Origin: Alphaproteobacteria bacterium | GTDB taxonomy: Bacteria; Pseudomonadota; Alphaproteobacteria; GCA-2731375 | Length of the DNA stretch: 46,283 bases | Assembly (NCBI GenBank): GCA_021776235.1 | Contig: JAJFGG010000117.1 | Coordinates: 1 to 46,283, forward strand | Direction of reading: 5' to 3' | Shown: positions 1-32,539 of the stretch, one piece after another | Layout: every line of letters begins with the position of its first letter | Numbering within the stretch: the first letter of the stretch is position 1 | Position numbers and translations under genes: made by a program | The notes under the pieces: generated by a model | Told to the model about the DNA's origin: nothing | The model's input: only the letters and a program-made list of their open reading frames with translations | Database searches by the model: none

Positions 1-1
1 G

Positions 2-487
2 GCGCCCAGTACCGAACGGGTGGGCGCCAACGCGGTCGATTGGAAACATGATCCGATCATTCTGTTTTCCAATTCCAAGCCAAATGCGAAAGAGCTTTTG
101 CAAGGCGTCCGCGATCAAATGGGCGCCTACCGTGCCACCGACAACATCGACTATGCCTATAAGGACAGTGCGGCCCAGGGCGCGCCGGATGCGATGTATG
201 ACGAGTTGGCCACGAAGTATCGGGCGGCGTTACTCGCCATAGCGGATTGAGGGGCATGTTCGTCGTGGAGTTTCCATGACAGCATCGAACTTGAAAAACG
301 CGGCGTTGCCAACTTTATCCTGACCACCGACACCTTCCTGCCCCTGGTTGAGGCACAAGCCAAGGCGCGCAAGGTCAAGGCCCAGGTCATCGTTGTAAAA
401 CATCCCATCGGCGGGCTGAATGCCGAGGAACTGGTGGAACGGATTGAAACCGCGGCCAGCGGCTTGCAGGCCGCGATCGACGCTTGA
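2..487 (+). CDS. UGSC-family selenoprotein, UGA-coded Sec, 5' partial
   Basis: The frame is open from base 2 to a TGA at 248-250 and stays open past it to a second TGA at 485-487. Reading the first TGA as selenocysteine (U) gives ADUGACSSWSFHDSIELEK around the site. This matches the (D)UGSC(S/T)SW.HDS.ELEKRG core of the UGSC (seleno)protein family, with Ala in place of the Ser. The part before the TGA has the family's ILFSNSKPNAKELL segment, and the part after it (ILTTDTF, VVKHPIGGLN) is the usual C-terminal half, so both halves belong to one protein. 161 residues are visible and the N-terminus lies outside the window. A U-x-x-C pair suggests a thiol/selenol redox role; the family's function is not established. 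It is probably the first visible gene of the operon running to 5437. No tRNA-Sec, selA, selB or selD is in the window. Confidence 0.88.
251..290 (+). promoter_or_regulatory. Candidate bacterial SECIS hairpin just after the UGA
   Basis: Right after the in-frame UGA the RNA can fold as GUUCG (258-262) with CGAAC (286-290), and UCGUGG (263-268) with CCAUGA (274-279, one G-U pair). The apical loop is AGUUU (269-273), with a six-base bulge on the 3' side. Loop base G270 lies 20 nt behind the UGA, within the range of bacterial SelB-binding SECIS elements, which need a loop or near-loop G. The hairpin lies inside coding sequence, as is normal in bacteria. The fold was made by eye. Confidence 0.65.
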
Positions 488-576
488 CGAACCGCGGCAA
501 TGACGGCGTGGGCGGGTTGGGCCGTTGTTCGGTCGGGCCGGCACGGCGCCGCAATGGACAGTGAAGAGTAAGACAT

Positions 577-1617
577 ATGGAACCTGCGCCGCAGACTGAA
601 ATTCTGGACCTTGATGACCTGGACCAGGCGGAATGGGACGAATATGCCCGTGCCCAGGGCTGGAGCGACGGCTTTCCTCTGGTGATGCCGACGGAGGCGG
701 TGGTGGCGCGTTTCGTGGCGACCTGTCATGGAGACAACGCGCCGATCCCGGCCATGTCGCCACGCCGGGTGATCCCAACCTTGCAGGCCATGGCCGCCAA
801 CGCGGTCATGGCCGGTTGCCGTCCGGAGTATTTTCCCGCCGTGCTGGCGGCGGCGCGGGCGGTGTTGACGCCGGAATACAATCTGCACGGCAGTCTGGCG
901 ACGACCCATTCCTGTGCGCCCATGCTGCTGTTCAATGGACCCATCCGCAAGAGCCTGGACATCAACTGCTCCTCCAACTGCTTTGGTCAGGGCCGGCAGG
1001 CCAACGCCACCATTGGCCGGGCGCTGCAATTGATCCTCTTGAATGTGGGTGGGGCCAAGCCCGGCGTGATGGATCGTTCTACTCAGGGCTCGCCAGCCAA
1101 ATATGCATTCTGCTTCGGCGAGAACGAGGAGGAGAGTCCGTGGGAGCCGTTCCATGTGCGCCGGGGATTCGCGGCCGGGGACAGTGTGGTCACCGCCATG
1201 CCGGCCGAGGCGCCCCATAACGTAAACGATCACGGCTCGAATACAGGTGCTGGCATCCTGACCACGATCGCGGGCACCATCTCCCAGGTTGGCGCCAACG
1301 CGATCTATTGCAATGCGCCCATTTTCATAGTGCTGGGCCCGGAGCACGCCCAGACCCTGCACCGGGACGGCTGGACCATCCCTGATATGCAGCAGGATCT
1401 GTATGATCGCTCGGCCGTGCATATCTCCCGCGTCTCGTCGGAAAACCAGGAAAGCTACGCCGGCATGGACCGGCCCATGGTCAAGGATCATTACCACATG
1501 ACCCCCAGCGCCGAGGATATCCTCATCCTGGTGGCCGGCGGTCCCGGCAAGCATTCCGCCTATATTCCCCCCTTCGGCTTTACCTCCGCCTGTTCCGTGC
1601 GGCTTTCCCACGTCTGA
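577..1617 (+). CDS. Conserved protein of unknown function, UGSC-operon paralogue A
   Basis: This is a 346-aa soluble protein with no signal peptide or membrane segment. I do not recognise a characterised family. It is clearly paralogous to the next gene: both have an N-terminal (W/L)xDG(F/L)PLV.PT motif near residues 28-40, an N-(A/C)-V-x-AGC-x-P motif, an NC-(F/L)-G-x-G-(R/N) motif followed by RAN or QAN, an (N)(V/I)GGA segment and a P(A/G)KY.FCF segment. The conserved Cys in AGC, NC and FCF could take part in redox or metal chemistry, which would fit a selenoprotein partner; that is inference. It lies 89 bp behind the selenoprotein and 10 bp before its paralogue, on the same strand, so co-transcription is likely. 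The ATG at 577 is preceded by a weak GAAGAG. Confidence 0.85.
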   Translation: MEPAPQTEILDLDDLDQAEWDEYARAQGWSDGFPLVMPTEAVVARFVATCHGDNAPIPAMSPRRVIPTLQAMAANAVMAGCRPEYFPAVLAAARAVLTPEYNLHGSLATTHSCAPMLLFNGPIRKSLDINCSSNCFGQGRQANATIGRALQLILLNVGGAKPGVMDRSTQGSPAKYAFCFGENEEESPWEPFHVRRGFAAGDSVVTAMPAEAPHNVNDHGSNTGAGILTTIAGTISQVGANAIYCNAPIFIVLGPEHAQTLHRDGWTIPDMQQDLYDRSAVHISRVSSENQESYAGMDRPMVKDHYHMTPSAEDILILVAGGPGKHSAYIPPFGFTSACSVRLSHV

Positions 1618-1627
1618 CGGCCCTGCC

Positions 1628-2647
1628 ATGGAAGCGTTGGGCGATCTGCCGGTCTTTCGGGAAACGGTGCCTTGGGAAGAGGCCCAGACGGTGCTGGAAG
1701 AGGGCGCTTTAGGCGATGGCCTGCCCCTGGTGCCGCCAACGCCACGGCGCCTGCAGGCGATGCTGGCCGGCGTCGCGGCGCCGGATGAATGCCATGGCCA
1801 ACTATTGCCTCTGTTCGGAGATCTGACGGCCGCCGCCGTGGCTTACAATTGCGTCCTGGCCGGTTGTCCGCCGGCCGCCCTGCCCATCGTGCTGACCGCC
1901 GCCGAGGCTAGTCTGGAGGCGCGATTCAATCTGCTGGGTCTTCTGACCACCACCGGCACACCGGCAGTGGTAACAATCGTGCACGGCCCCATTGCCCGCG
2001 CCCTGGGCATGAATGCCGGCACCAATTGCCTTGGCCCCGGCAACCGCGCCAATGCCTCTCTGGGCCGGGCCATCGCCCTGGTGATGCGCAACATCGGCGG
2101 CGCCCGGGCCGGCATAGGTGATATGGCGACCATGGGCCAGCCGGGCAAATATACGTTCTGCTTCCCCGAGGGCGGGGAAGCGGTCTTCCCACCCTTGCCG
2201 GCGCGGCGCGGCCTTGATGGGGATACAAGCGCGGTAACAGTACTGGGGGTTTCCGGCACGACGGAGGTCCTGCCCAGCGGCGGCGGTGATACGCCGGAGG
2301 CCATATTGGCGCCCATGGCCGCTGCCATGACTGCCGGCGGGGCGGTGGCCAGCGCGGGCCGGCAGCGGGACCTGGGCGAGCAGTTCTTTTTGTTGCCGCC
2401 CGAACTGGCCCGGCAGATCGTCAAGCATGGCTGGGACCTGGCCCGGCTGCAGGAATATCTGTTCAACGCCCGCTCAGTGGCCCTGCCAGAAATTGCCAGC
2501 ATCGCCGCCCTGCGGCCTATCGCGGCCGGCGCAGGGGATATTCACCCCGTCGTTACCGGCGGGGCCGGCGTGAAAATGACCCATCTGCCGCTGTGGGCCG
2601 GCGGCAGCGTTTCCGTAACCAGAACCGTGCAAGATCTTGGGAGTTAG
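1628..2647 (+). CDS. Conserved protein of unknown function, UGSC-operon paralogue B
   Basis: This 339-aa soluble protein is a tandem paralogue of the gene just upstream. Shared landmarks in order are DG-L-PLVPPT near residue 33, NCVLAGC near 75, NCLGPGNRAN near 130, NIGGA and GKYTFCF. The two copies are well diverged, so the duplication is old and they may form a heteromer. The paralogues start only 10 bp apart and the next gene begins 5 bp downstream, which points to one transcript. No Shine-Dalgarno sequence is obvious at the ATG, consistent with translational coupling. Its function is unknown; the link to the UGSC selenoprotein rests on gene order. Confidence 0.84.
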   Translation: MEALGDLPVFRETVPWEEAQTVLEEGALGDGLPLVPPTPRRLQAMLAGVAAPDECHGQLLPLFGDLTAAAVAYNCVLAGCPPAALPIVLTAAEASLEARFNLLGLLTTTGTPAVVTIVHGPIARALGMNAGTNCLGPGNRANASLGRAIALVMRNIGGARAGIGDMATMGQPGKYTFCFPEGGEAVFPPLPARRGLDGDTSAVTVLGVSGTTEVLPSGGGDTPEAILAPMAAAMTAGGAVASAGRQRDLGEQFFLLPPELARQIVKHGWDLARLQEYLFNARSVALPEIASIAALRPIAAGAGDIHPVVTGGAGVKMTHLPLWAGGSVSVTRTVQDLGS

Positions 2648-2652
2648 CTGAT

Positions 2653-4608
2653 ATGGCCATTACCCACCTGGAAATTCTGCAACGCGGACCGTATGAGGAC
2701 GGCCGTGGCTTTGGCGATGTCGGGCCTTACGAGCGGATCGAGGCCATAGCCCATTATGGGGTCGACCCCCGGCACACCGCCAACCAGGCGGTGGTGGACC
2801 TGGCGCTGGCGGAACGGAACGCAGCTGATGACCTGGTGCATTTCCAGGGCGATGTTACCCTGTTGCAGCCGGTGCAAACCGGTGCCGGCAACCGCGCCCT
2901 TTTGATGCAGGTGCCGAACCGGGGCAAACGTGTGTTGGCCCGCTTTAATCAATCCCCCATGGGCACCGAGAACACGGCGGAGATCGCGCCCGGCGACGGA
3001 TTCCTGTTCGAAAAAGGCTGGACCGTCGCCTGGGCCGGTTGGCAATGGGATGTGCCGCGTACACCGCAGCGCCAGCGCATTGGCCTGGTGCCGCCCATGG
3101 TCCCAGCCAACGCGCGGACCCCGGCCAGCCGGATGCAGCTGCGTATCCAGCCGGACAAAGCGTGCGACCGTTTGCCCCTGACGGATCAGCATGTGGGTGA
3201 TCTGGGCCGTCATACCCTGGTGCGTGTGGCGGATAGCAACGAGCCTGGCGCCCAATTGTTGGTGCGCAGCAGTCCCTATGGTAAAGCAGCGGTCATTCCA
3301 CGGCAGAACTGGCGCTTCGAACCTGATGATCATATTTGGTTGGATGGCGGGTTTGCAGCTGGACTGATTTACGACGTCCTCTATACCCCGCTGGATTGCC
3401 CCATCGTCGGTGCGGGGCTATTGGCGACCAGGGAACTGGCGTCGTATCTGCGCTATGACGCAGACGCGCCCACCGCCGGCGCCATAGAGCATGTGATCGG
3501 CGAGGGGCAGTCCCAATGCGGCCGATTTCTGCGTACCTATCTTTACCTGGGCCTAAACAAAGACGAGGCGGGCCGGGCGGCCATGGATGGCGTGCTGGCC
3601 CATATCGCCGGGGGCCGGCGTGGTGAATTCAATCACCGCTATGCGCAGCCGTCCGTACAGCCGACGCCATCGTTCGGCCATCTGTTCCCCTTTGCCGATG
3701 GCGTCCAGACCGATCCCCTGACGGGCGCCACGGGCGGTCTGTTGTCGCGCCAGGCAGCCACGGGCGCCATGCCCAAGATCATTTACACGGATACCTCGTC
3801 GGAATACTGGCGCGGTGACGCGGGCCTTAGCCATGGTAATCTGGAAACCGGCGGCGATGCTGAAATGCTCCCGGGAGTGCGGCGTTATCTGTTCGCCTCA
3901 ACCCAGCATGGCCCCGGCGCCGCCGCCCTGGCCAGGCGCACCATGTTCGGCAGCCATGGCCAGAATTACCTGAACATCATCGACTATCGGCCGCTGTACC
4001 GCGCCGCCCTGATGAACTTGCTGGCCTGGGTAAAGCACGATACGCCGCCGCCCGACAGCGCCTACCCCAGCGCGGCCGCCGGCGATCGCCGCAGCCGCGG
4101 GGAGATCATGGATGCGTTAACTGCGATACCGGCCTTTGCTTTGCCTGATGCTGCGGCCATGACCTGGGTTTATCCTCTGGACCTCGGCCCTGACGCCGAA
4201 AGGGGGATCGGCGTTCTGCCGGCGACGACCGGGCCGGCGCCCTATCCCGACTGGGTTTCAACCGTCGACCAGAATGGCAACGAGGCCGCCGGCCTTGTCA
4301 TGCCCGACGTGGCCGTGCCTGTGGCCTCCCATACGGGCTTCAACCCGCGCCATGCCGATACGGGCGGGGCCGGGCAATTGCTGGAATACGTTGGCTCCTC
4401 CATTCCTTTTGCCAGGGACAAGGCCAGCCGCCAGGCGGCGGGCGATCCGCGCCCCTCTTTACAGGAGCGTTATGCCAGCCGCGATGATTATCTGGAACAG
4501 GTCCGCGCCGCGGCGGAAGAATTGGCCGGGCTGCGCTATTTGCTGGCCGAGGATGTAGCGCTATGCGTTGAGCTTGCCGCCGCCCGCTACGATGTTTGTA
4601 TAGCGTAG
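2653..4608 (+). CDS. Alpha/beta hydrolase domain-containing protein
   Basis: A 651-aa protein of the large 'alpha/beta hydrolase domain' family (Abhydrolase_10 type). The N-terminal MAITHLEILQRGPYEDGRGFG and PYERIEA stretch is a typical N-terminal beta-rich module. The hydrolase domain starts near residue 200 and has the nucleophile-elbow-like GEGQSQCGRFLRTYLYLG, where the Ser sits in GQSQCGR. No signal peptide is seen. I chose the ATG at 2653, preceded by GGGAG, over an in-frame ATG at 2593 that would overlap the upstream gene. Members are presumed esterases or lipases of unknown substrate. Here it probably acts on an ester intermediate of the pathway served by the UGSC operon (inference). 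Confidence 0.85.
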   Translation: MAITHLEILQRGPYEDGRGFGDVGPYERIEAIAHYGVDPRHTANQAVVDLALAERNAADDLVHFQGDVTLLQPVQTGAGNRALLMQVPNRGKRVLARFNQSPMGTENTAEIAPGDGFLFEKGWTVAWAGWQWDVPRTPQRQRIGLVPPMVPANARTPASRMQLRIQPDKACDRLPLTDQHVGDLGRHTLVRVADSNEPGAQLLVRSSPYGKAAVIPRQNWRFEPDDHIWLDGGFAAGLIYDVLYTPLDCPIVGAGLLATRELASYLRYDADAPTAGAIEHVIGEGQSQCGRFLRTYLYLGLNKDEAGRAAMDGVLAHIAGGRRGEFNHRYAQPSVQPTPSFGHLFPFADGVQTDPLTGATGGLLSRQAATGAMPKIIYTDTSSEYWRGDAGLSHGNLETGGDAEMLPGVRRYLFASTQHGPGAAALARRTMFGSHGQNYLNIIDYRPLYRAALMNLLAWVKHDTPPPDSAYPSAAAGDRRSRGEIMDALTAIPAFALPDAAAMTWVYPLDLGPDAERGIGVLPATTGPAPYPDWVSTVDQNGNEAAGLVMPDVAVPVASHTGFNPRHADTGGAGQLLEYVGSSIPFARDKASRQAAGDPRPSLQERYASRDDYLEQVRAAAEELAGLRYLLAEDVALCVELAAARYDVCIA

Positions 4609-4636: not shown

Positions 4637-5437
4637 ATGGCAGACGATCCCACAAATCCCGATGGCCGTATCAATACTGAACGGCGCGGGCCATTGTTGC
4701 TGATCGGCATTGACCGGCCGCACAAATTCAACGGCTTCACGCCGAAAATGACCCTGGAGCTGGGCGCTGCCTACACCCTGTTGGAGCGTGATGATGACTT
4801 GCGCTGCGGAGTCCTGCACGCGGTCGGTCCCCACACCACTGCCGGTCTGGATCTTCCGAAAATGGCGCCTCACAGAGAAAAGGGCGAGCCGCTGTATGGC
4901 AAGGGCAATATCGACTGTTTCGGCCTGGCCGGACCTCACCGCAGCAAACCCATGCTGGCGGCGGTGCAGGGCATCACCTACACCATCGGCATCGAACTGA
5001 TGCTGGCATGTGACATCGTGATTGCTGCCGACGACTGCCGCTTCTCGCAACTGGAAGTGCAGCGCAACCTGATGGCCACGGGCGGGGCGACCATCCGCAT
5101 GGTGCAGCGCGCCGGCTATGGCAACGCCATGCGCTATCTGCTGACGGATGATGAATTCGACGCGGCAACGGCACTGCGTTTCAATTATATCCAGGAAGTG
5201 GTGCCTGTGGGGCAGCAACTGGACCGGGCCATCGAATTGGCGGAAAAGATCTGCGCCCAGGCCCCCTTGGCCGTGCGCGCGACCATCGCCAATTCACAAA
5301 AGTTCATTGAACAGGGTTTCGATGCGGCAGTGGCGGAATTCGCCACCGTCAACGTCGAACTAGGCAAAACCAGCGATGCCAAGGAGGGCCTGGCTGCTTT
5401 TGTCGAGAAACGCCCGGCCAAGTTTACCGGCACTTGA
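4637..5437 (+). CDS. Crotonase / enoyl-CoA hydratase family protein
   Basis: A 266-aa cytoplasmic protein with the crotonase fold. After a beta strand (GPLLLIGIDRPHKFNGFTP) comes the first oxyanion-hole region (AVGPHTTAGLDLPKM), then the second, where IELMLACDIVIAADDCRF matches the typical G-x-ELxLACD(I/L) helix. Crotonases hydrate or isomerise 2-enoyl-CoA esters. The usual paired catalytic Glu residues are not obvious, so the exact reaction is open. The ATG at 4637 has a good AGGAG nine bases upstream and is 28 bp behind the hydrolase. As the last gene of the plus-strand operon it implies a CoA-thioester step. Confidence 0.85.
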   Translation: MADDPTNPDGRINTERRGPLLLIGIDRPHKFNGFTPKMTLELGAAYTLLERDDDLRCGVLHAVGPHTTAGLDLPKMAPHREKGEPLYGKGNIDCFGLAGPHRSKPMLAAVQGITYTIGIELMLACDIVIAADDCRFSQLEVQRNLMATGGATIRMVQRAGYGNAMRYLLTDDEFDAATALRFNYIQEVVPVGQQLDRAIELAEKICAQAPLAVRATIANSQKFIEQGFDAAVAEFATVNVELGKTSDAKEGLAAFVEKRPAKFTGT

Positions 5438-18050: not shown

Positions 18051-19637
18051 ATGGGCCATGCTGTTAGCCAGAATTTACGTCTGGGCATCGATGTTGGGGG
18101 TACCAATACCGATGCGGTCTTGATGGACGGCGACCGGGTTGTCGCCTGGCACAAGGCCACCACGGGCCGGCATATCACCGACGCCATCGTCGCGGCCGCC
18201 GGCGCGGTGCTGCAACAGGCCGGCATCGCCCCGGAACAGATTTATGCGGTGATGCTGGGGACCACCCAGTTCACCAACGCGGTGATTGAACGGCGCCGCC
18301 TGAACCCGGTCGCGGTGCTGCGTCTGGCGGCCCCCGCCACCACCGCCGTGCCGCCCATGTCCGACTGGCCCGAGGATCTGGCCGCCGTGGTGGGCGGGCA
18401 GCACTATCTTCTCAAGGGCGGACTGGAATTCGACGGCCGCCCTATCTCGCCCCTGGACGAAGACGAGATCGCCGCGGCGGCCAGGGAAATCCGCGGCCTT
18501 GGTCTGAAGGCGGTGGCCGTTACCTCCGTGTTCTCGCCCCTGGACGCGGAAATGGAGCACCGGGCCGAGGCGGTGCTGCGCCGGGAACTGCCCGCCGAGA
18601 CTTGCGCCATCACCCTGTCCCACCGCATTGGCCGCATTGGTCTCTTGGAGCGGGAGAACGCGGCGATCCTGAATGCCGCCCTGTCCGGCCTGGCGGGGCA
18701 GGTCCTCGGCGCCTTTGCCCAGGCAATCGATGACCTGGGCCTGAAGGCGCCGCTTTTTATCTCGCAGAACGACGGCACCTTGATGACGGCGGAACACGCC
18801 GCCCGCTATCCGGTTCTGACCTTTGCCTCGGGCCCGACAAATTCCATGCGCGGCGCGGCGGTGCTGTCGGGCCTGGAGGATGCCCTGGTGGTCGATATCG
18901 GCGGCACCACCACGGATATCGGCCTGTTGCTGGATGGCTTCCCCCGCGAAGCCGCCATGACCGTGGATGTGGGCGGCGTGCGGACCAATTTCCGGATGCC
19001 GGATTTGCTGGCCCTGGGCCTGGGTGGGGGCAGTCTGGTGCGCGATGGCGGCGCCCGCATCGGGCCGGACTCCGTGGGTTTCGAACTGCGGCAGCGGGCC
19101 CTGGTCTTTGGCGGCGACAGCCTGACCATGAGCGACATCGCCGTTGCCGCCCGTCAGATGCAGCTTGGTGATCCGGCCAAGGTTGGACAATTGGATGGCG
19201 TCGAGACCGCCCTGGCCCGGGCCGCGGCGATGATCGAGGAAGCCTTGGAGCGGGTGCGCCCCAGCGCGGCGACCCTGCCGGTCATCCTGGTGGGCGGCGG
19301 TGCGCCGGTCTTGGCGGGGCAGCGCATCGGCGGCGGCGAGATCGTGCGGCCCGGCCATGGCCAGGTGGCCAACGCCATCGGCGCCTCCATCGCCATGGTG
19401 GGCGGCGAGTGCGACCGCATCTTCTCCCTGGACGGCGTCAGCCGGGATGAAGCCGTGGCGGCGGCCAAGACCGAGGCCAGGGCCCAGGCGGCGGCAGCCG
19501 GCGCGGCGCCCGGCAGCATCCGGATCGTGGAACTGGACGAGATCCCCTTGAGCTATCTGCCCGGCAACGCGACCCGTCTGCGGGCCAAGGCGGTGGGCGA
19601 TCTGGCTGCCGGTGCTGGCATGGAGGGCGGCGCATGA
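18051..19637 (+). CDS. Hydantoinase/oxoprolinase family protein (HyuA-like)
   Basis: A 528-aa ATP-dependent ring-opening enzyme homologue. The hydantoinase/oxoprolinase N-terminal ASKHA motif LGIDVGGTNTDAVL is at residues 11-24. The HyuA domain has the second phosphate loop VVDIGGTTTDIG and LGLGGGSLV. It is shorter than full HyuA proteins (about 680 aa) and lacks the C-terminal extension, as is typical of forms paired with a DUF917 gene. It overlaps that gene by ATGA (19634-19637), so the pair is translationally coupled. The likely substrate is a hydantoin- or oxoproline-like lactam; which one cannot be told. Confidence 0.88.
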   Translation: MGHAVSQNLRLGIDVGGTNTDAVLMDGDRVVAWHKATTGRHITDAIVAAAGAVLQQAGIAPEQIYAVMLGTTQFTNAVIERRRLNPVAVLRLAAPATTAVPPMSDWPEDLAAVVGGQHYLLKGGLEFDGRPISPLDEDEIAAAAREIRGLGLKAVAVTSVFSPLDAEMEHRAEAVLRRELPAETCAITLSHRIGRIGLLERENAAILNAALSGLAGQVLGAFAQAIDDLGLKAPLFISQNDGTLMTAEHAARYPVLTFASGPTNSMRGAAVLSGLEDALVVDIGGTTTDIGLLLDGFPREAAMTVDVGGVRTNFRMPDLLALGLGGGSLVRDGGARIGPDSVGFELRQRALVFGGDSLTMSDIAVAARQMQLGDPAKVGQLDGVETALARAAAMIEEALERVRPSAATLPVILVGGGAPVLAGQRIGGGEIVRPGHGQVANAIGASIAMVGGECDRIFSLDGVSRDEAVAAAKTEARAQAAAAGAAPGSIRIVELDEIPLSYLPGNATRLRAKAVGDLAAGAGMEGGA

Positions 19638-20719
19638 TCAGGATTACCCTCGATGATCTGGATGATATCGCTCTGGGCGCGACCTTTCTGGGCACGGGGG
19701 GGGGCGGTGATCCCTATATCGCCACCCTGATGACCCGACAGGCCATTACGGAGCATGGCCCGGTCACCATGTTGTCCCTGGACGAGGTGGCCGACGATGC
19801 GCTTGTTTTTGCCTGCGGCAATATGGGCGCGCCCACGGTGGCGATCGAAAAGATCATGGCGGCCGGCCAGCCGCCCGCCGCCGTGCTGGCCCTGGAGGCG
19901 CACCTTGGCCGCCAGGCCGATGTCCTGATGGCGTTCGAGGCGGGGGGCTCCAACTCCATGATGCCGATCTACAATGCCGCCATGCTGGGCAAACCCATGC
20001 TGGATGCGGACGGCATGGGCCGGGCTTTTCCGGAAATGCAGATGGTCACCTTCTCGGTCTATGGCGCCTCGGGCTCTCCTTTCGCCCTGGCCTCGGAACA
20101 TGGCGACACGGTCATTCTGAATATCAACGACGACAAACGCGCCGAGTACATCGGCCGCGGCATCGTCATCCGCATGGGCGCGCGCTCCGCCAAGGCGTCC
20201 TATCCCATGGATGGCCGGACGGCGCGCCGGGTCGCCATCCCCGGCACCACCTCCCTGTGTCAGGCGATCGGCGCCAATTTGCGCCAGTCCCGGGCCGGAA
20301 ACCGCGATCCCTTCACGGCCCTGATCGAAATGCTGGCCGGTACCCATTATGGCCATGCAAAGGTGCTGTTCAAAGGCAAGGTCACCGATTTGATCAGGGA
20401 GACCCGGGACGGCTGGGCCATTGGCAAGGTCGTGATCACCGATCAGGCCCAGGGGGCATTCGAGGTTGAGTTCCAGAACGAGTTTCTGGTCGCCCGCCAG
20501 GACGGCCGGCTGCGGGCCATTGTCCCCGACCTGATCTGTATCCTGGACAGCGAGATGGCCCAGCCGATCACCACGGAGCGCCTGCGTTATGGCCAGCGGG
20601 TAACGGTCATGGCCGTCTCCGCCCCGCCCATCATGCGCACGGAGCAGGCCCTGGCGGTGTTCGGCCCGGTCGGCTTTGGATTACCGGAGCCGTTCGTGCC
20701 GGTGGAAGAGCTGGATTAG
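19634..20719 (+). CDS. DUF917 domain protein (S-methyl-thiohydantoin desulfurase-like)
   Basis: A 361-aa DUF917 protein. The family N-terminal signature is FLGTGGGGDPYIATLM at residues 18-33; GAPTVAIEKI, MLDADGMGRAFPEMQM and a C-terminal (V)SAPPIMRTEQAL segment follow. DUF917 members act with HyuA-like partners; one characterised type desulfurates S-methyl thiohydantoin. The start codon overlaps the stop of the HyuA-like gene. The pair likely forms one enzyme that acts on a cyclic amide. Confidence 0.88.
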   Translation: MIRITLDDLDDIALGATFLGTGGGGDPYIATLMTRQAITEHGPVTMLSLDEVADDALVFACGNMGAPTVAIEKIMAAGQPPAAVLALEAHLGRQADVLMAFEAGGSNSMMPIYNAAMLGKPMLDADGMGRAFPEMQMVTFSVYGASGSPFALASEHGDTVILNINDDKRAEYIGRGIVIRMGARSAKASYPMDGRTARRVAIPGTTSLCQAIGANLRQSRAGNRDPFTALIEMLAGTHYGHAKVLFKGKVTDLIRETRDGWAIGKVVITDQAQGAFEVEFQNEFLVARQDGRLRAIVPDLICILDSEMAQPITTERLRYGQRVTVMAVSAPPIMRTEQALAVFGPVGFGLPEPFVPVEELD

Positions 20720-28868: not shown

Positions 28869-29405
28869 ATGCGGCTTGTCGTGACGCGTGACGCAAGAAC
28901 ATTAAGTGGTTTGACCTCCCACCAACTTAGGGAATGGACAACCCGCCGAGCAATAATTCCAGCGGATCGGCAAAGTCGTGGGCATGGCCGCCCCGCGGAA
29001 TTTTCATGGCAAACAATTTTGTTATTGAGAATTGCCCTCGAATTGAGGACGCACTTCCACGTCGAACTTGGAGCGTACAGAGAATTTTTTTCGTCTATGA
29101 GAGACTATATCACATCAGCGTCATTCATAGGTCTGTGGGGGACTTCTTTACATATTCTATCAGACGAAAAATGGGCAATTACTAACGGCGATTATCCCTC
29201 TGCTTCGACGAACACAATTAGTATCCCGTTAAATAAACATCTCGCGGTTCTATCAGTTGGATTCTCATTCCCTACGTCAAGTGTTGAAGGTCAATTTGAT
29301 CTGTTCCCAGTGCAAGATACTGCAGGCGTTAATCGACCGACATCGAAGTTGTCGGAGAATGCCGTATATGATTCTGCGGTAAGGCCGTCGAGGGGGCGAA
29401 CATGA
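28869..29405 (+). CDS. MerR-like HTH protein, first gene of the island cassette
   Basis: A protein of about 178 aa. Near the N-terminus, LSGLTSHQLREWTTRRAIIP is a MerR-type winged-HTH with the usual L-T-x-x-Q-L-R-x-W pattern, followed by a GRPAEFSW wing and LLRIALEL helix. The rest has no recognised domain and no effector-binding Cys. ATG 28869 is six bases behind GGAGG; ATG 28866 is also possible. The stop overlaps the methyltransferase start (ATGA). It may be a regulator of the cassette, or a sequence-binding subunit, since MerR-HTH proteins occur in several phage and restriction contexts. Confidence 0.72.
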   Translation: MRLVVTRDARTLSGLTSHQLREWTTRRAIIPADRQSRGHGRPAEFSWQTILLLRIALELRTHFHVELGAYREFFSSMRDYITSASFIGLWGTSLHILSDEKWAITNGDYPSASTNTISIPLNKHLAVLSVGFSFPTSSVEGQFDLFPVQDTAGVNRPTSKLSENAVYDSAVRPSRGRT

Positions 29406-32400
29406 CGAGTAGTGCATATCGTCGAGCCCTAAAAGCCACTGGCTATTTCACAGAGAAGGGTAGGGGTGCACCGGGCCTCAGCACCTTGAATGATAGTCGA
29501 GATACTCGACTGCGGCCCTTGTTGAATAATGATCGAGTGGGATTAAATGCCGATGCTGTATTTTATGCACAAGGGACTCCGACAGCGGTTTTTAAAGATG
29601 CCGGCAAGGCTATGCCCGATGAAAAGCAAATCGATAAATGGCATGAGGCGGCATGGAATGTGGGCCTGGCTCCATTGCTATGGATAGTCACGCCAACCGA
29701 CATTCGCCTATACGATTGCTTTGCTTCGCCGACCAAAATAGCAGGTAGTAGCAGTTCACTAGGAGTCTTTAGTCTTGATGATGATGAGAAATTGGCGTCA
29801 CTCAATTCCATGTGTGGTCGGTTGGCCACTGAAACAGGAGCATTCTGGTCGAGCGTAATTGGTGAAAAGATAGATCGGCGCTACAGAGTTGACCAAGAGC
29901 TGTTAAACGAAATTGGAGCGCTGGAAGAAAAACTGGCGGAGCTACCCCCGGCGAACCCAAATCAAGATCAACGAATTGTAGCGGGAGCAGTCGCAGCGAG
30001 AGATTTCGCTCAGCGGCTAATCGGGCGGTGTATCTTCACATGGTACCTTCTGGATAGAGAGATAGCGCAACCATTTCTGCCGAGAAACCTAAAGTGTGAT
30101 TTGGCCAAAATGTTTTCTGACGAGAGCAATGCGTTCGCACTTTTTGATTGGCTGCGTAAAACTTTCAATGGCGATTTGTTTCCGATGGATGATCCTGGGG
30201 CAGAGCGCCAACGTCTTGGACCCAGCCATCTTAGTTTGATGTGTGACTTTATTGAGGGACGGAGTTTAACTCGAGGTGGTGCAGGTCAAGGCAGATTATT
30301 CAAATTTCGCTTTGATGCTATTCCCGTTGATTTGATTAGCTCCATTTATCAACAGTTTGCGCGTTCGAGTGACGTAGATACCGCGAAGTCTCAGGGGCTA
30401 CATTATACACCAGTCGAACTGGTGCATATGACCTTGGATCCAGTGTTTGAAGATTTATCACCAACAGCACGAGTAATTGACCCAACGTGTGGGTCTGGTG
30501 CTTTCCTTGTTGAGTCGTTCCGTCGTCTTGTTTGGAAATCTTGTGGAGACAAAGCGCCATCGCGACAGCTTGTCCGCGAGATATTATACACTAGATTATT
30601 CGGCATCGATATTAACCGATCTGCTCTTGGCATTGCGGCATTCAGTCTCTATCTTGCGGCCTTAGAATTCGAAACAGGGCCAATAACTGATGTTTCGGAT
30701 TTGAAGTTTGATCGATTGATCGGAACGACGCTATTTGAAGCCGATGCAACAGGAAAAACGTTACCTGATGCTATCGTGAAGAACCAGTTTGACGCAGTTG
30801 TTGGCAATCCACCATGGACGTTTGACGGATCACTAAAACGTCCACCACGAGTAAAGGGACGGAAATCGACCGTGCGGCCCAGACGCAGTCCTGATCAAGA
30901 ATTCCTAAAGACTGCAAGCAACCTTTCAGGCGAAACAGGCCGGATCGGCATGATCATGAAGTCGACTCCATTCTTTTCTCGGGATGATCATGCGATTTCA
31001 GCACGAAATCACCTATTTAGTTCACTTTCGCCTGTTGCTCTCGTCAATCTCTCGGCTTTGCGAAAAGAGAATCTTTTCCCGGACACCTCTGGTCCGGCCA
31101 TGTTGTTTTTTGCGCGATGCGCACTAATAGGCGATGCAGACCAGATGATGGTCGGATCTGCGCCGTGGACGTCGGATTTCAAGCGAAATGGCATTGTCAA
31201 TATTGGTACGGGTGATATCCGCTCTGTACCGCTTTCACGAGTATTGGAGGAATCAACTGTACTTAAAGCAGCGACTTTGGGCTCTGTTCGAGACAGCTGG
31301 CTAATTGAACGTTTGCAGCTTGAGTTTAAAACATTCGATGATGTTTTGAACTCGCTAGGCCTATACCCCAAGAAGGCGCGCGGACAAGGATACAAGGTGA
31401 TTGGCCCACCCAGTCCTTTCCCTAAAAGCTATTTTCGTAAGAAAGATTTAAAAACCAAAGATTACCAGGCTTTGAGATTAAACGATCTCTTATTGCCACG
31501 TTTCAACCACAAGACACTGCATCGTCCACGAGAGGGGGCGATTTTTGAGGGGCCGCTACTTATTTGCCCAAAAGGTCAATTGAGTAGAAGTCTCGAACTT
31601 GGTCGATACAGTGCTGCTGTGCAGGAACGCGGATTACTCTACAATGAGAGTTTTTATGGAATCTCTTTTAAACAATGCGATGGCGATTACGCCTTTCTAT
31701 ATAGTGGAATCCTGAATTCGTGTTTGACTAGCTTTCAGTTGGCGTTCGCAGGCGGTGTTTGGGGTCTCGAGCGGCCTACCGTAGGGCCAAATGACATACG
31801 CGCGTTGCGGATGCCTCATCCAGATCGATTGACAAAAAAATCTATCAATCGAGTGGTTAAAGCTGAGGCCATTCTTTCAAAAGGTCAGAACGTGCCTCGT
31901 CAACCAAGCCTTCTCGGCGATACCTTTGAATTGATCCCGGCGCCAACCGATTCCGACGCGCTATTGCGGTTGGACCAAGCCGTTGCTGAATTATACGGCC
32001 TAGACGCAGACGAATTTGTCCTCGTGCGAGAAAGTGTCGAGCGGGCGCGAATGATGATCTATGAGACTTATGGGCATCGCAAAAACTCGGTTTTGCCGCC
32101 AAATTTAGACGACCTTAAGGAATATTCTCAAGCGGTAATTCAGGTCGTGAATCGCTATTTGCGTGCCAAGGAAGAACGTCATCTTGAAGCCGTGATTTAC
32201 GAGATGCCAGTACTTCGATCTTCTTGGAACCAAGGACAAGGGGGGCTTAGCGCTGTACGGTTTTCAATGGTTCCTGGCTCGCCTACGAAAGTGGGAAAGG
32301 TACGATATGGAGAAGAGGACGAACTAAAAAGGGTACATGGGGCACTTGCTGGCAGTGATGATGGATTGCTTCCTCCATATCTCAATGAACGTCGATATTT

Positions 32401-32539
32401 GCGTTTTTACTTTGAAAATGATCTCATCATCGTGAAACCGAGTGAGCGTCGTGCTTGGACCGGTGTTGCCGGGCTCAATGATGGAGATGTAATTCTTGCT
32501 GATCATTGGCTCGGAGCGCGAAATGCAGTTCGGGCCTGA
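29402..32539 (+). CDS. N6-adenine DNA methyltransferase, type IIG/Eco57I-like
   Basis: A 1045-aa protein. The SAM motif I is DPTCGSGAFLVESFRRL (about residue 360), then FGIDINRSALGIAAFSLYLA, and the catalytic motif IV is NPPW (about residue 469) in FDAVVGNPPWTF, which is typical of N6-adenine methylases. The C-terminal half (LLLPRFNHKTL, GPLLICPKGQ, YSGILNS, GVWGLERPTVGPNDIRALRMP) looks like a type IIG target-recognition domain. The N-terminal 120 residues may be a nuclease-like fold, but where a PD-(D/E)XK Glu should stand there is V-F-K (PTAVFKD), so it may be inactive. It is coupled at both ends (ATGA overlap upstream, 17-bp overlap downstream) and AT-rich compared with the flanks. Confidence 0.88.
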   Translation: MTSSAYRRALKATGYFTEKGRGAPGLSTLNDSRDTRLRPLLNNDRVGLNADAVFYAQGTPTAVFKDAGKAMPDEKQIDKWHEAAWNVGLAPLLWIVTPTDIRLYDCFASPTKIAGSSSSLGVFSLDDDEKLASLNSMCGRLATETGAFWSSVIGEKIDRRYRVDQELLNEIGALEEKLAELPPANPNQDQRIVAGAVAARDFAQRLIGRCIFTWYLLDREIAQPFLPRNLKCDLAKMFSDESNAFALFDWLRKTFNGDLFPMDDPGAERQRLGPSHLSLMCDFIEGRSLTRGGAGQGRLFKFRFDAIPVDLISSIYQQFARSSDVDTAKSQGLHYTPVELVHMTLDPVFEDLSPTARVIDPTCGSGAFLVESFRRLVWKSCGDKAPSRQLVREILYTRLFGIDINRSALGIAAFSLYLAALEFETGPITDVSDLKFDRLIGTTLFEADATGKTLPDAIVKNQFDAVVGNPPWTFDGSLKRPPRVKGRKSTVRPRRSPDQEFLKTASNLSGETGRIGMIMKSTPFFSRDDHAISARNHLFSSLSPVALVNLSALRKENLFPDTSGPAMLFFARCALIGDADQMMVGSAPWTSDFKRNGIVNIGTGDIRSVPLSRVLEESTVLKAATLGSVRDSWLIERLQLEFKTFDDVLNSLGLYPKKARGQGYKVIGPPSPFPKSYFRKKDLKTKDYQALRLNDLLLPRFNHKTLHRPREGAIFEGPLLICPKGQLSRSLELGRYSAAVQERGLLYNESFYGISFKQCDGDYAFLYSGILNSCLTSFQLAFAGGVWGLERPTVGPNDIRALRMPHPDRLTKKSINRVVKAEAILSKGQNVPRQPSLLGDTFELIPAPTDSDALLRLDQAVAELYGLDADEFVLVRESVERARMMIYETYGHRKNSVLPPNLDDLKEYSQAVIQVVNRYLRAKEERHLEAVIYEMPVLRSSWNQGQGGLSAVRFSMVPGSPTKVGKVRYGEEDELKRVHGALAGSDDGLLPPYLNERRYLRFYFENDLIIVKPSERRAWTGVAGLNDGDVILADHWLGARNAVRA

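Follow-up and report, generated by a model that had tools for sequence, protein, structure and literature searches.

The closest described relatives of the locus analysed here are proteins of the UGSC family (PF24696; NF041046; the "UGSC-containing protein" of PMC2398784), which was described, together with its selenocysteine (Sec), in 2008 (PMC2398784). According to the available passages of that paper, UGSC proteins are among the commonest selenoproteins of ocean metagenomes (255 sequences; Table 2 therein), the family is likely to be thioredoxin (Trx)-like, and fusion of a UGSC protein to a conserved domain, designated Unknown_1, was already recorded. In the passages at hand of a 2026 review (PMC13188914), the functions of this selenoprotein group are referred to as largely uncharacterised. 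The same source describes glycine reductase, in which GrdB is the substrate-binding subunit and releases ammonia. A preliminary description of the present sequence had called the biochemistry of the UGSC family undescribed, in agreement with the passages of PMC2398784, PMC13188914 and PMC9312934 that were available.

In the present study we analysed a 46,283-nt stretch of DNA (hereafter the window), which constitutes the entire contig C21 of an alphaproteobacterial draft genome (6.36 Mb in 174 contigs, 98.4% complete). The selenoprotein gene located at its edge is therefore truncated at the 5' end, with a loss of 11 codons relative to full-length orthologs (nine of the 11 full-length aligned sequences start with MRIVNP, and the other two with MLIVNP and MKIVNP). 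Translation of positions 2-484 with TGA read as U gave 161 residues with a single internal U, in the core ADUGACSSWSFHDSIELEK. This reproduced both the frame proposed in the preliminary description (from position 2 through the TGA and on to 487 without a further stop) and the replacement of Ser by Ala in the family core. The Pfam profile PF24696 matched the whole window protein with 109.9 bits (gathering score 25), and each half was also recognised separately, as had been anticipated (Table 1). The score against the NCBIfam equivalog NF041046 (UGSC_fam) was 110.7 bits, i.e. below the curated cut-off of 125, as were the scores of two full-length orthologs (L192, 106.4; L199, 116.3). The window gene was therefore assigned to PF24696, and not to the NCBIfam equivalog.

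Table 1. Features of the selenoprotein locus and the conserved genes that follow it (positions in the window).
Feature	Position	Strand	Basis
UGSC-family selenoprotein, first part	2..247	+	PF24696, 32.9 bits on this half alone; 5' end lost at contig edge
In-frame TGA, most probably read as selenocysteine	248..250	+	TGA in 13/13 orthologs; TGT/TGC in five Cys homologs
SECIS-like hairpin, nt 15-33 from the T of the TGA; apical GT at 270-271	262..280	+	pairing conserved in the family
UGSC-family selenoprotein, second part; terminator TGA at 485-487	251..487	+	PF24696, 53.2 bits on 254-484 alone; purifying selection
Partner protein, 346 aa, unannotated family	577..1617	+	without Pfam/NCBIfam match; adjoins UGSC genes
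Second, diverged partner protein, 339 aa	1628..2647	+	approx. 32% identical to the first partner; without Pfam/NCBIfam match
Alpha/beta hydrolase (PF20091), conserved next gene	2593..4608	+	PF20091, 122 bits; order kept in 8/12 loci; start codon uncertain, the listed start overlapping the preceding gene
Enoyl-CoA hydratase/isomerase family protein, conserved next gene	4637..5437	+	PF00378; order kept in 8/12 loci

Two further regions of the window are worth recording: (i) a hydantoinase/oxoprolinase-type gene that overlaps an S-Me-THD family gene (PF06032/PF20906) by 4 bases (18051-20719), and (ii) a gene for a probable restriction-modification methylase of 1045 aa with N6_Mtase/Eco57I domains (29402-32539).

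A search of 61 genomes (the source genome and 60 relatives) identified UGSC homologs in 18 of them, with a total of 99 matches. After removal of four fragmentary hits (L067, L121, L125, L158), the remaining 95 members all carried U, within the motifs UGSC (78), UGAC (14), UGTC (2) and USSC (1). The window protein has the UxxC arrangement, with Cys three residues after the Sec, and resembles the family in the extent of the domain over nearly the whole length, in the position of the Sec and, as far as the core family is concerned, in the hairpin following the TGA. It differs in carrying UGAC instead of UGSC, in scoring below the NF041046 cut-off and in belonging to a clade of its own. This clade comprises 12 members with support of 100/100 (long branches were flagged at the deeper joins) in a tree of 76 of the 95 sequences, from which 19 divergent, fused-type ones had been left out. 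UGAC is present in ten of the 13 window orthologs and UGSC in three (G010, G025, L201), and the tree requires at least four changes of the UGAC label, also when well-supported branches alone are considered. Thus, Ala is a tolerated, recurrent replacement: the site is a variant, as originally noted, but a recurrent one. The window gene is a variant member of a family known since 2008, and a UGAC gene alone, as one more member, would matter little.

Neither of the two partner proteins encoded behind the selenoprotein gene had a Pfam match up to E 10 or an NCBIfam match at 1e-3; similarly, three sampled relatives of these proteins gave no Pfam match up to E 1, and the two that were tried gave no NCBIfam match. 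An alignment search detected the partner family in exactly those 18 of the 61 genomes that have the UGSC family, while 43 genomes have neither (15 of these 18 genomes belong to one family, so the cases are not independent). A partner was found at 96 of the 99 UGSC matches, within 500 nt on the same strand or in frame. Conversely, 120 of 123 partner matches lie at most 2.5 kb from a UGSC match (of 131 rows, eight short fragments with E 9.6e-10 or weaker were not counted). Three UGSC matches fall outside the 96: (i) G003:C73, placed at a contig end, with the remainder seemingly at the other end of the contig, (ii) a match in the congener G008, whose cognate partners are on another contig, and (iii) G011:C165, a short contig. 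In some paralogs of the source genome (G000:C126 and C98) the partner continues in the same open frame, which constitutes a fusion. Unknown_1 of PMC2398784 is likewise a conserved domain that occurs in fusion with a UGSC protein, a likeness that is drawn from its description only. Linkage of UGSC genes to a partner as a general rule is not stated in the passages of PMC2398784, PMC13188914 and PMC9312934 that were available, and is new relative to them; the literature searches made here yielded no paper devoted to it. The hydrolase and enoyl-CoA hydratase family genes follow in the same order in most of the ortholog loci examined (Table 1); they were not seen at L195, L202 or L069, and the L201 locus ends too early to show them.

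Structural models were generated for both components. The model of the full-length ortholog L192, based on a 17-sequence alignment that included the window protein (pLDDT 85.4, pTM 0.80), consists of five alternating strands and helices, with the Sec (residue 94) between a strand (86-91) and a helix (95-110). The UGSC fold is thus probably Rossmann-like, with the UxxC motif at the start of the helix following the third strand, a prediction that we consider moderately supported. The best structural matches were a mixed set of three-layer alpha/beta proteins, headed in VIA by a designed protein (Z 10.3; 3.2 A over 126 residues) and in Foldseek by a flavodoxin-like domain (E 3.7e-4, TM 0.45); folds of this kind often give values in this range, which have little bearing on function. 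The partner was modelled with a pLDDT of 84.9, and comparison with the PDB yielded no convincing fold (Foldseek, best E 9.9e-3 and TM about 0.2; VIA, best Z 5.9 over 78 residues), cyclic amide hydrolases leading the Foldseek list and fumarases appearing, with low Z, in that of VIA.

Sequence searches with the UGSC, partner and GRDB-like alignments brought up no convincing relative of solved structure (all matches at chance level, with E of 0.26 or weaker). When profiles were compared with one another, a relationship between UGSC proteins and the selenoproteins of the glycine and proline reductases emerged. In hhalign, 29 UGSC sequences matched 16 GRDB-type sequences with a probability of 84.9 (E 6.4e-6 for a single comparison), Sec being aligned with Sec. 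The score for all 95 UGSC sequences was 41.8, and 34.8 with the Sec and Cys columns masked, compared with at most 20.7 in 60 column shuffles and 12.2 for a reversed alignment; without the fused divergent group it dropped to 30.2. Among six UGSC proteins compared with NCBIfam models, L083 matched TIGR01917 (glycine reductase selenoprotein B; E 2.2e-4) and GrdF (1.6e-4), and L107 matched GrdF (5.6e-4), in both cases over the C-terminal end of the model. The other four (L192, L199, L002, L203) gave no GrdB-type match at 1e-3, nor did the window protein, in which PF07355 was not detected up to E 10 either (the membership score is 22 bits). The clade of the window gene taken together with the Cys relatives matched the GRDB-type sequences weakly (hhalign probability 4.8), and so did the set without the fused divergent group (25.6). 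The similarity to the GrdB-type Sec domain, with Sec aligned, therefore exceeds chance for the UGSC family as a whole and is weak for the window clade.

The features common to UGSC proteins and GrdB/GrdF/PrdB (PF07355, TIGR01917, TIGR04483) are the UxxC motif followed by a helix and then by an "LE..GIP"-like stretch, as well as the coincident Sec; the two groups differ in that they can be aligned over 61 columns only. These observations lend moderate support, less firm than that for the fold, to the view that the UGSC family shares descent with the Sec-bearing end of GrdB/GrdF/PrdB. The passages of PMC2398784, PMC13188914 and PMC9312934 at our disposal state neither a link of UGSC proteins to proline reductase nor a function for them, and the relation to GrdB is new relative to these passages; the literature searches made here likewise yielded no paper devoted to it. 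Profile comparison of the partner with GRDB-like proteins detected nothing (probability 0.5).

Most likely, the UGSC protein acts together with the two adjacent partners as a reductase. In the scheme that we infer, the substrate would be bound by the partner and attacked by the selenolate; the Cys located three residues further on would form a selenenylsulfide, to be reduced by a thioredoxin-like donor. A selenolate-based two-component reductase operating by precisely these steps is a serious, though tentative, proposal. The main competing explanation is that the UGSC protein is a general thiol oxidoreductase with a thioredoxin fold, which keeps the partner reduced and is not a GrdB-like catalytic subunit. 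The resemblance of UxxC to redox motifs speaks in its favour. Against this, five alternating beta-alpha units make up the predicted fold, structure searches place it closest to other three-layer alpha/beta proteins, and the sequence similarity, although weak, points to GrdB-type proteins; absence of the thioredoxin fold from the structural match list is not equivalent to its exclusion. On balance, we regard this explanation as unlikely, but as the strongest of the alternatives. Less probable again is the binding of a metal or metalloid by the Sec and Cys, with a role in detoxification or transport carried out together with the partner. UxxC can bind metals, and the presence of several paralogs per genome would fit such a role, but the two further conserved neighbours encode a hydrolase and an enoyl-CoA hydratase family protein and are not metal genes.

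The internal TGA is almost certainly read as selenocysteine, as judged from comparative sequence data. TGA occupies the same codon in 13 of 13 orthologs compared (the window gene, 11 from relatives and L201). In 12 comparisons with the window gene, dN/dS values ranged from 0.06 to 0.26 before the TGA and from 0.09 to 0.25 after it, which indicates purifying selection on both halves. Across the 61-genome search, exactly one in-frame TGA was present in 98 of the 99 UGSC matches; the remaining match is a fragment that covers 32 profile positions and lies at a contig end. A separate scan of named genomes yielded 16 loci, of which 11 have TGA at the Sec site and five a Cys codon: TGT in two Natronomonas (L203, L204; haloarchaea), and TGC in the actinobacteria Actinophytocola (one) and Pseudonocardia (two) (L205-L207). 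A partner is encoded nearby at all five of the Cys loci. The 11 TGA loci come from MAGs titled Rhodospirillaceae, Alphaproteobacteria, Hyphomicrobiales or Proteobacteria; ten of them are apparently already included among the relatives and do not represent extra evidence. Hence the Cys homologs that the preliminary description had named as potential support do exist, and the downstream frame, for which a lack of selection would have counted against its reading, is under constraint, with homologs carrying either TGA or Cys codons at the site.

A SECIS-like hairpin at a fixed distance after the TGA, as expected of a bacterial selenoprotein gene, could also be recognised in the sequences. It begins 11 bases after the TGA, and 452 of 469 cells were paired in 67 distinct core-family sequences (distinct 51-mers were counted, 67 core and 17 fused divergent). 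In 2000 shuffles, which take no account of relatedness, the mean was 416 and the maximum 431 cells, and sliding of one side reduced pairing to 6-49%. The pair 21-27, through which the Cys/Trp codon six positions after the Sec is tied to the third base of the codon preceding His, was formed in all 67 sequences, as C-G in 48 and as G-C or G-U in 19. This swap follows the tree, in which the sequences with Trp fall into two sister clades (modest support, 88/69), and it may reflect a single event. Three of the five Cys homologs, which also have Trp there, show G-G at this pair, as expected where there is no selection for a hairpin. Moreover, the apical GT is absent from all five Cys homologs, which have kept five to six of the seven pairs. 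Codon choice in the core family also fits the hairpin: at codon 8, Ser is always encoded by AGT (30 of 30) and Cys mostly by TGT (34 of 36), in contrast to Cys at codon 4, which is TGC in 51 of 67. The window contains 1252 TGA triplets, counting both strands, and the one at position 248 alone is followed by all seven pairs together with the apical GT (the gene's own terminator has three of the seven pairs). Raw folding energy was discarded as evidence for the hairpin, because it was ordinary (rank 184 of 1252 TGA contexts; z -2.0 to -2.9). In the fused divergent group (17 distinct sequences) the hairpin is missing in this register, with 55 of 119 cells paired, and an Rfam search of positions 1-3000 of the window gave no match.

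Analysis of the source genome revealed genes of the selenocysteine machinery, among them selA (583.5 bits) and selB (414.3 bits when its in-frame neighbours are included). Two matches to selD, with 381.6 and 315.1 bits, also exceeded the cut-off, and an in-frame TGA is present in one of them. The latter SelD (L023; G000:C46:22266-23192) is itself likely to be a selenoprotein (GGGUGSK), and the second selD match, at C25, is without TGA. In contrast to these genes, tRNA-Sec was not detected when the draft assembly was searched by Rfam, by an anticodon pattern or with the tRNA of a congener as the query, so that the set selA/B/C/D suggested for inspection was confirmed except for the tRNA. Of nine matches to the tRNA-Sec model in this genome, the eight submitted to ARAGORN were assigned to tRNA-Ser, Tyr, Cys, Phe or Asp. 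The anticodon pattern produced 43 matches (14 for a backward control), and ARAGORN identified no tRNA-Sec among the 30 of them submitted to it; Rfam gave no match over 19 kb around selAB. ARAGORN detected tRNA-SeC(tca) in 10 of 10 congeners searched, and the missing gene is taken here as an assembly gap, an assumption and not a proven fact. In one congener (G006:C209; L028 / L158), the tRNA-Sec gene is placed directly beside a UGSC-partner pair.

The failure to find tRNA-Sec in the assembly is what could be said for the TGA being a true stop, and the locus a degraded pseudogene or a pair of separate short genes. We reject this highly improbable reading, given the purifying selection on both sides of a TGA present in all the orthologs compared, the single in-frame TGA and absence of TAA and TAG in the orthologs inspected, the Cys codons of homologs, the conserved hairpin and the presence of SelA and SelB. 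Routine translation of TGA as a standard amino acid, for instance Trp (code 4), which the in-frame TGA in several genes of these genomes might suggest, is of negligible probability and was also rejected, since the selenoprotein gene and the next gene end in TGA (485-487 and 1615-1617), the internal TGA falls at Sec/Cys positions in the families examined, and Sec genes are present.

Reading of the internal TGA as selenocysteine, as originally proposed, is thus upheld by the Cys homologs, the SECIS-like hairpin, SelA, SelB and SelD, and the constraint on both halves. In a well-supported model, SelB, guided by the hairpin, would insert selenocysteine at this codon, and translation would terminate at the TGA that closes the frame. 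That the gene encodes a selenoprotein and that this protein is associated with the partner is very probable, a judgement that applies to these two points and does not extend to the chemistry.

The lineage itself looks like a group of selenoprotein-rich alphaproteobacteria. Proteins of the GRDB type (PF07355) are encoded in 16 of the 61 genomes, also with in-frame TGA; 19 of the 20 loci examined show UPxC with an in-frame TGA, and the remaining one (L220) shows UPLD. The source genome (G000, including L215) contains six PrdB/GrdB-like (PF07355) matches in addition to six UGSC matches, and L208-L227 include such proteins of congeners and relatives.

It is possible, though we advance this with still more reserve than the reaction steps, that UGSC proteins and their partners make up a widespread class of two-component reductases, distributed from Alphaproteobacteria to haloarchaea and actinobacteria, in which a stand-alone GrdB-like selenolate or thiolate protein is combined with a substrate-binding subunit and each paralog pair serves another substrate. 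The version found in the window, with two diverged partners, a hydrolase and an enoyl-CoA hydratase, would then form part of a catabolic operon. Taken together, the nearly constant partner, the predicted fold and the distant link to glycine and proline reductases provide a concrete and testable hypothesis on the function of the UGSC family.
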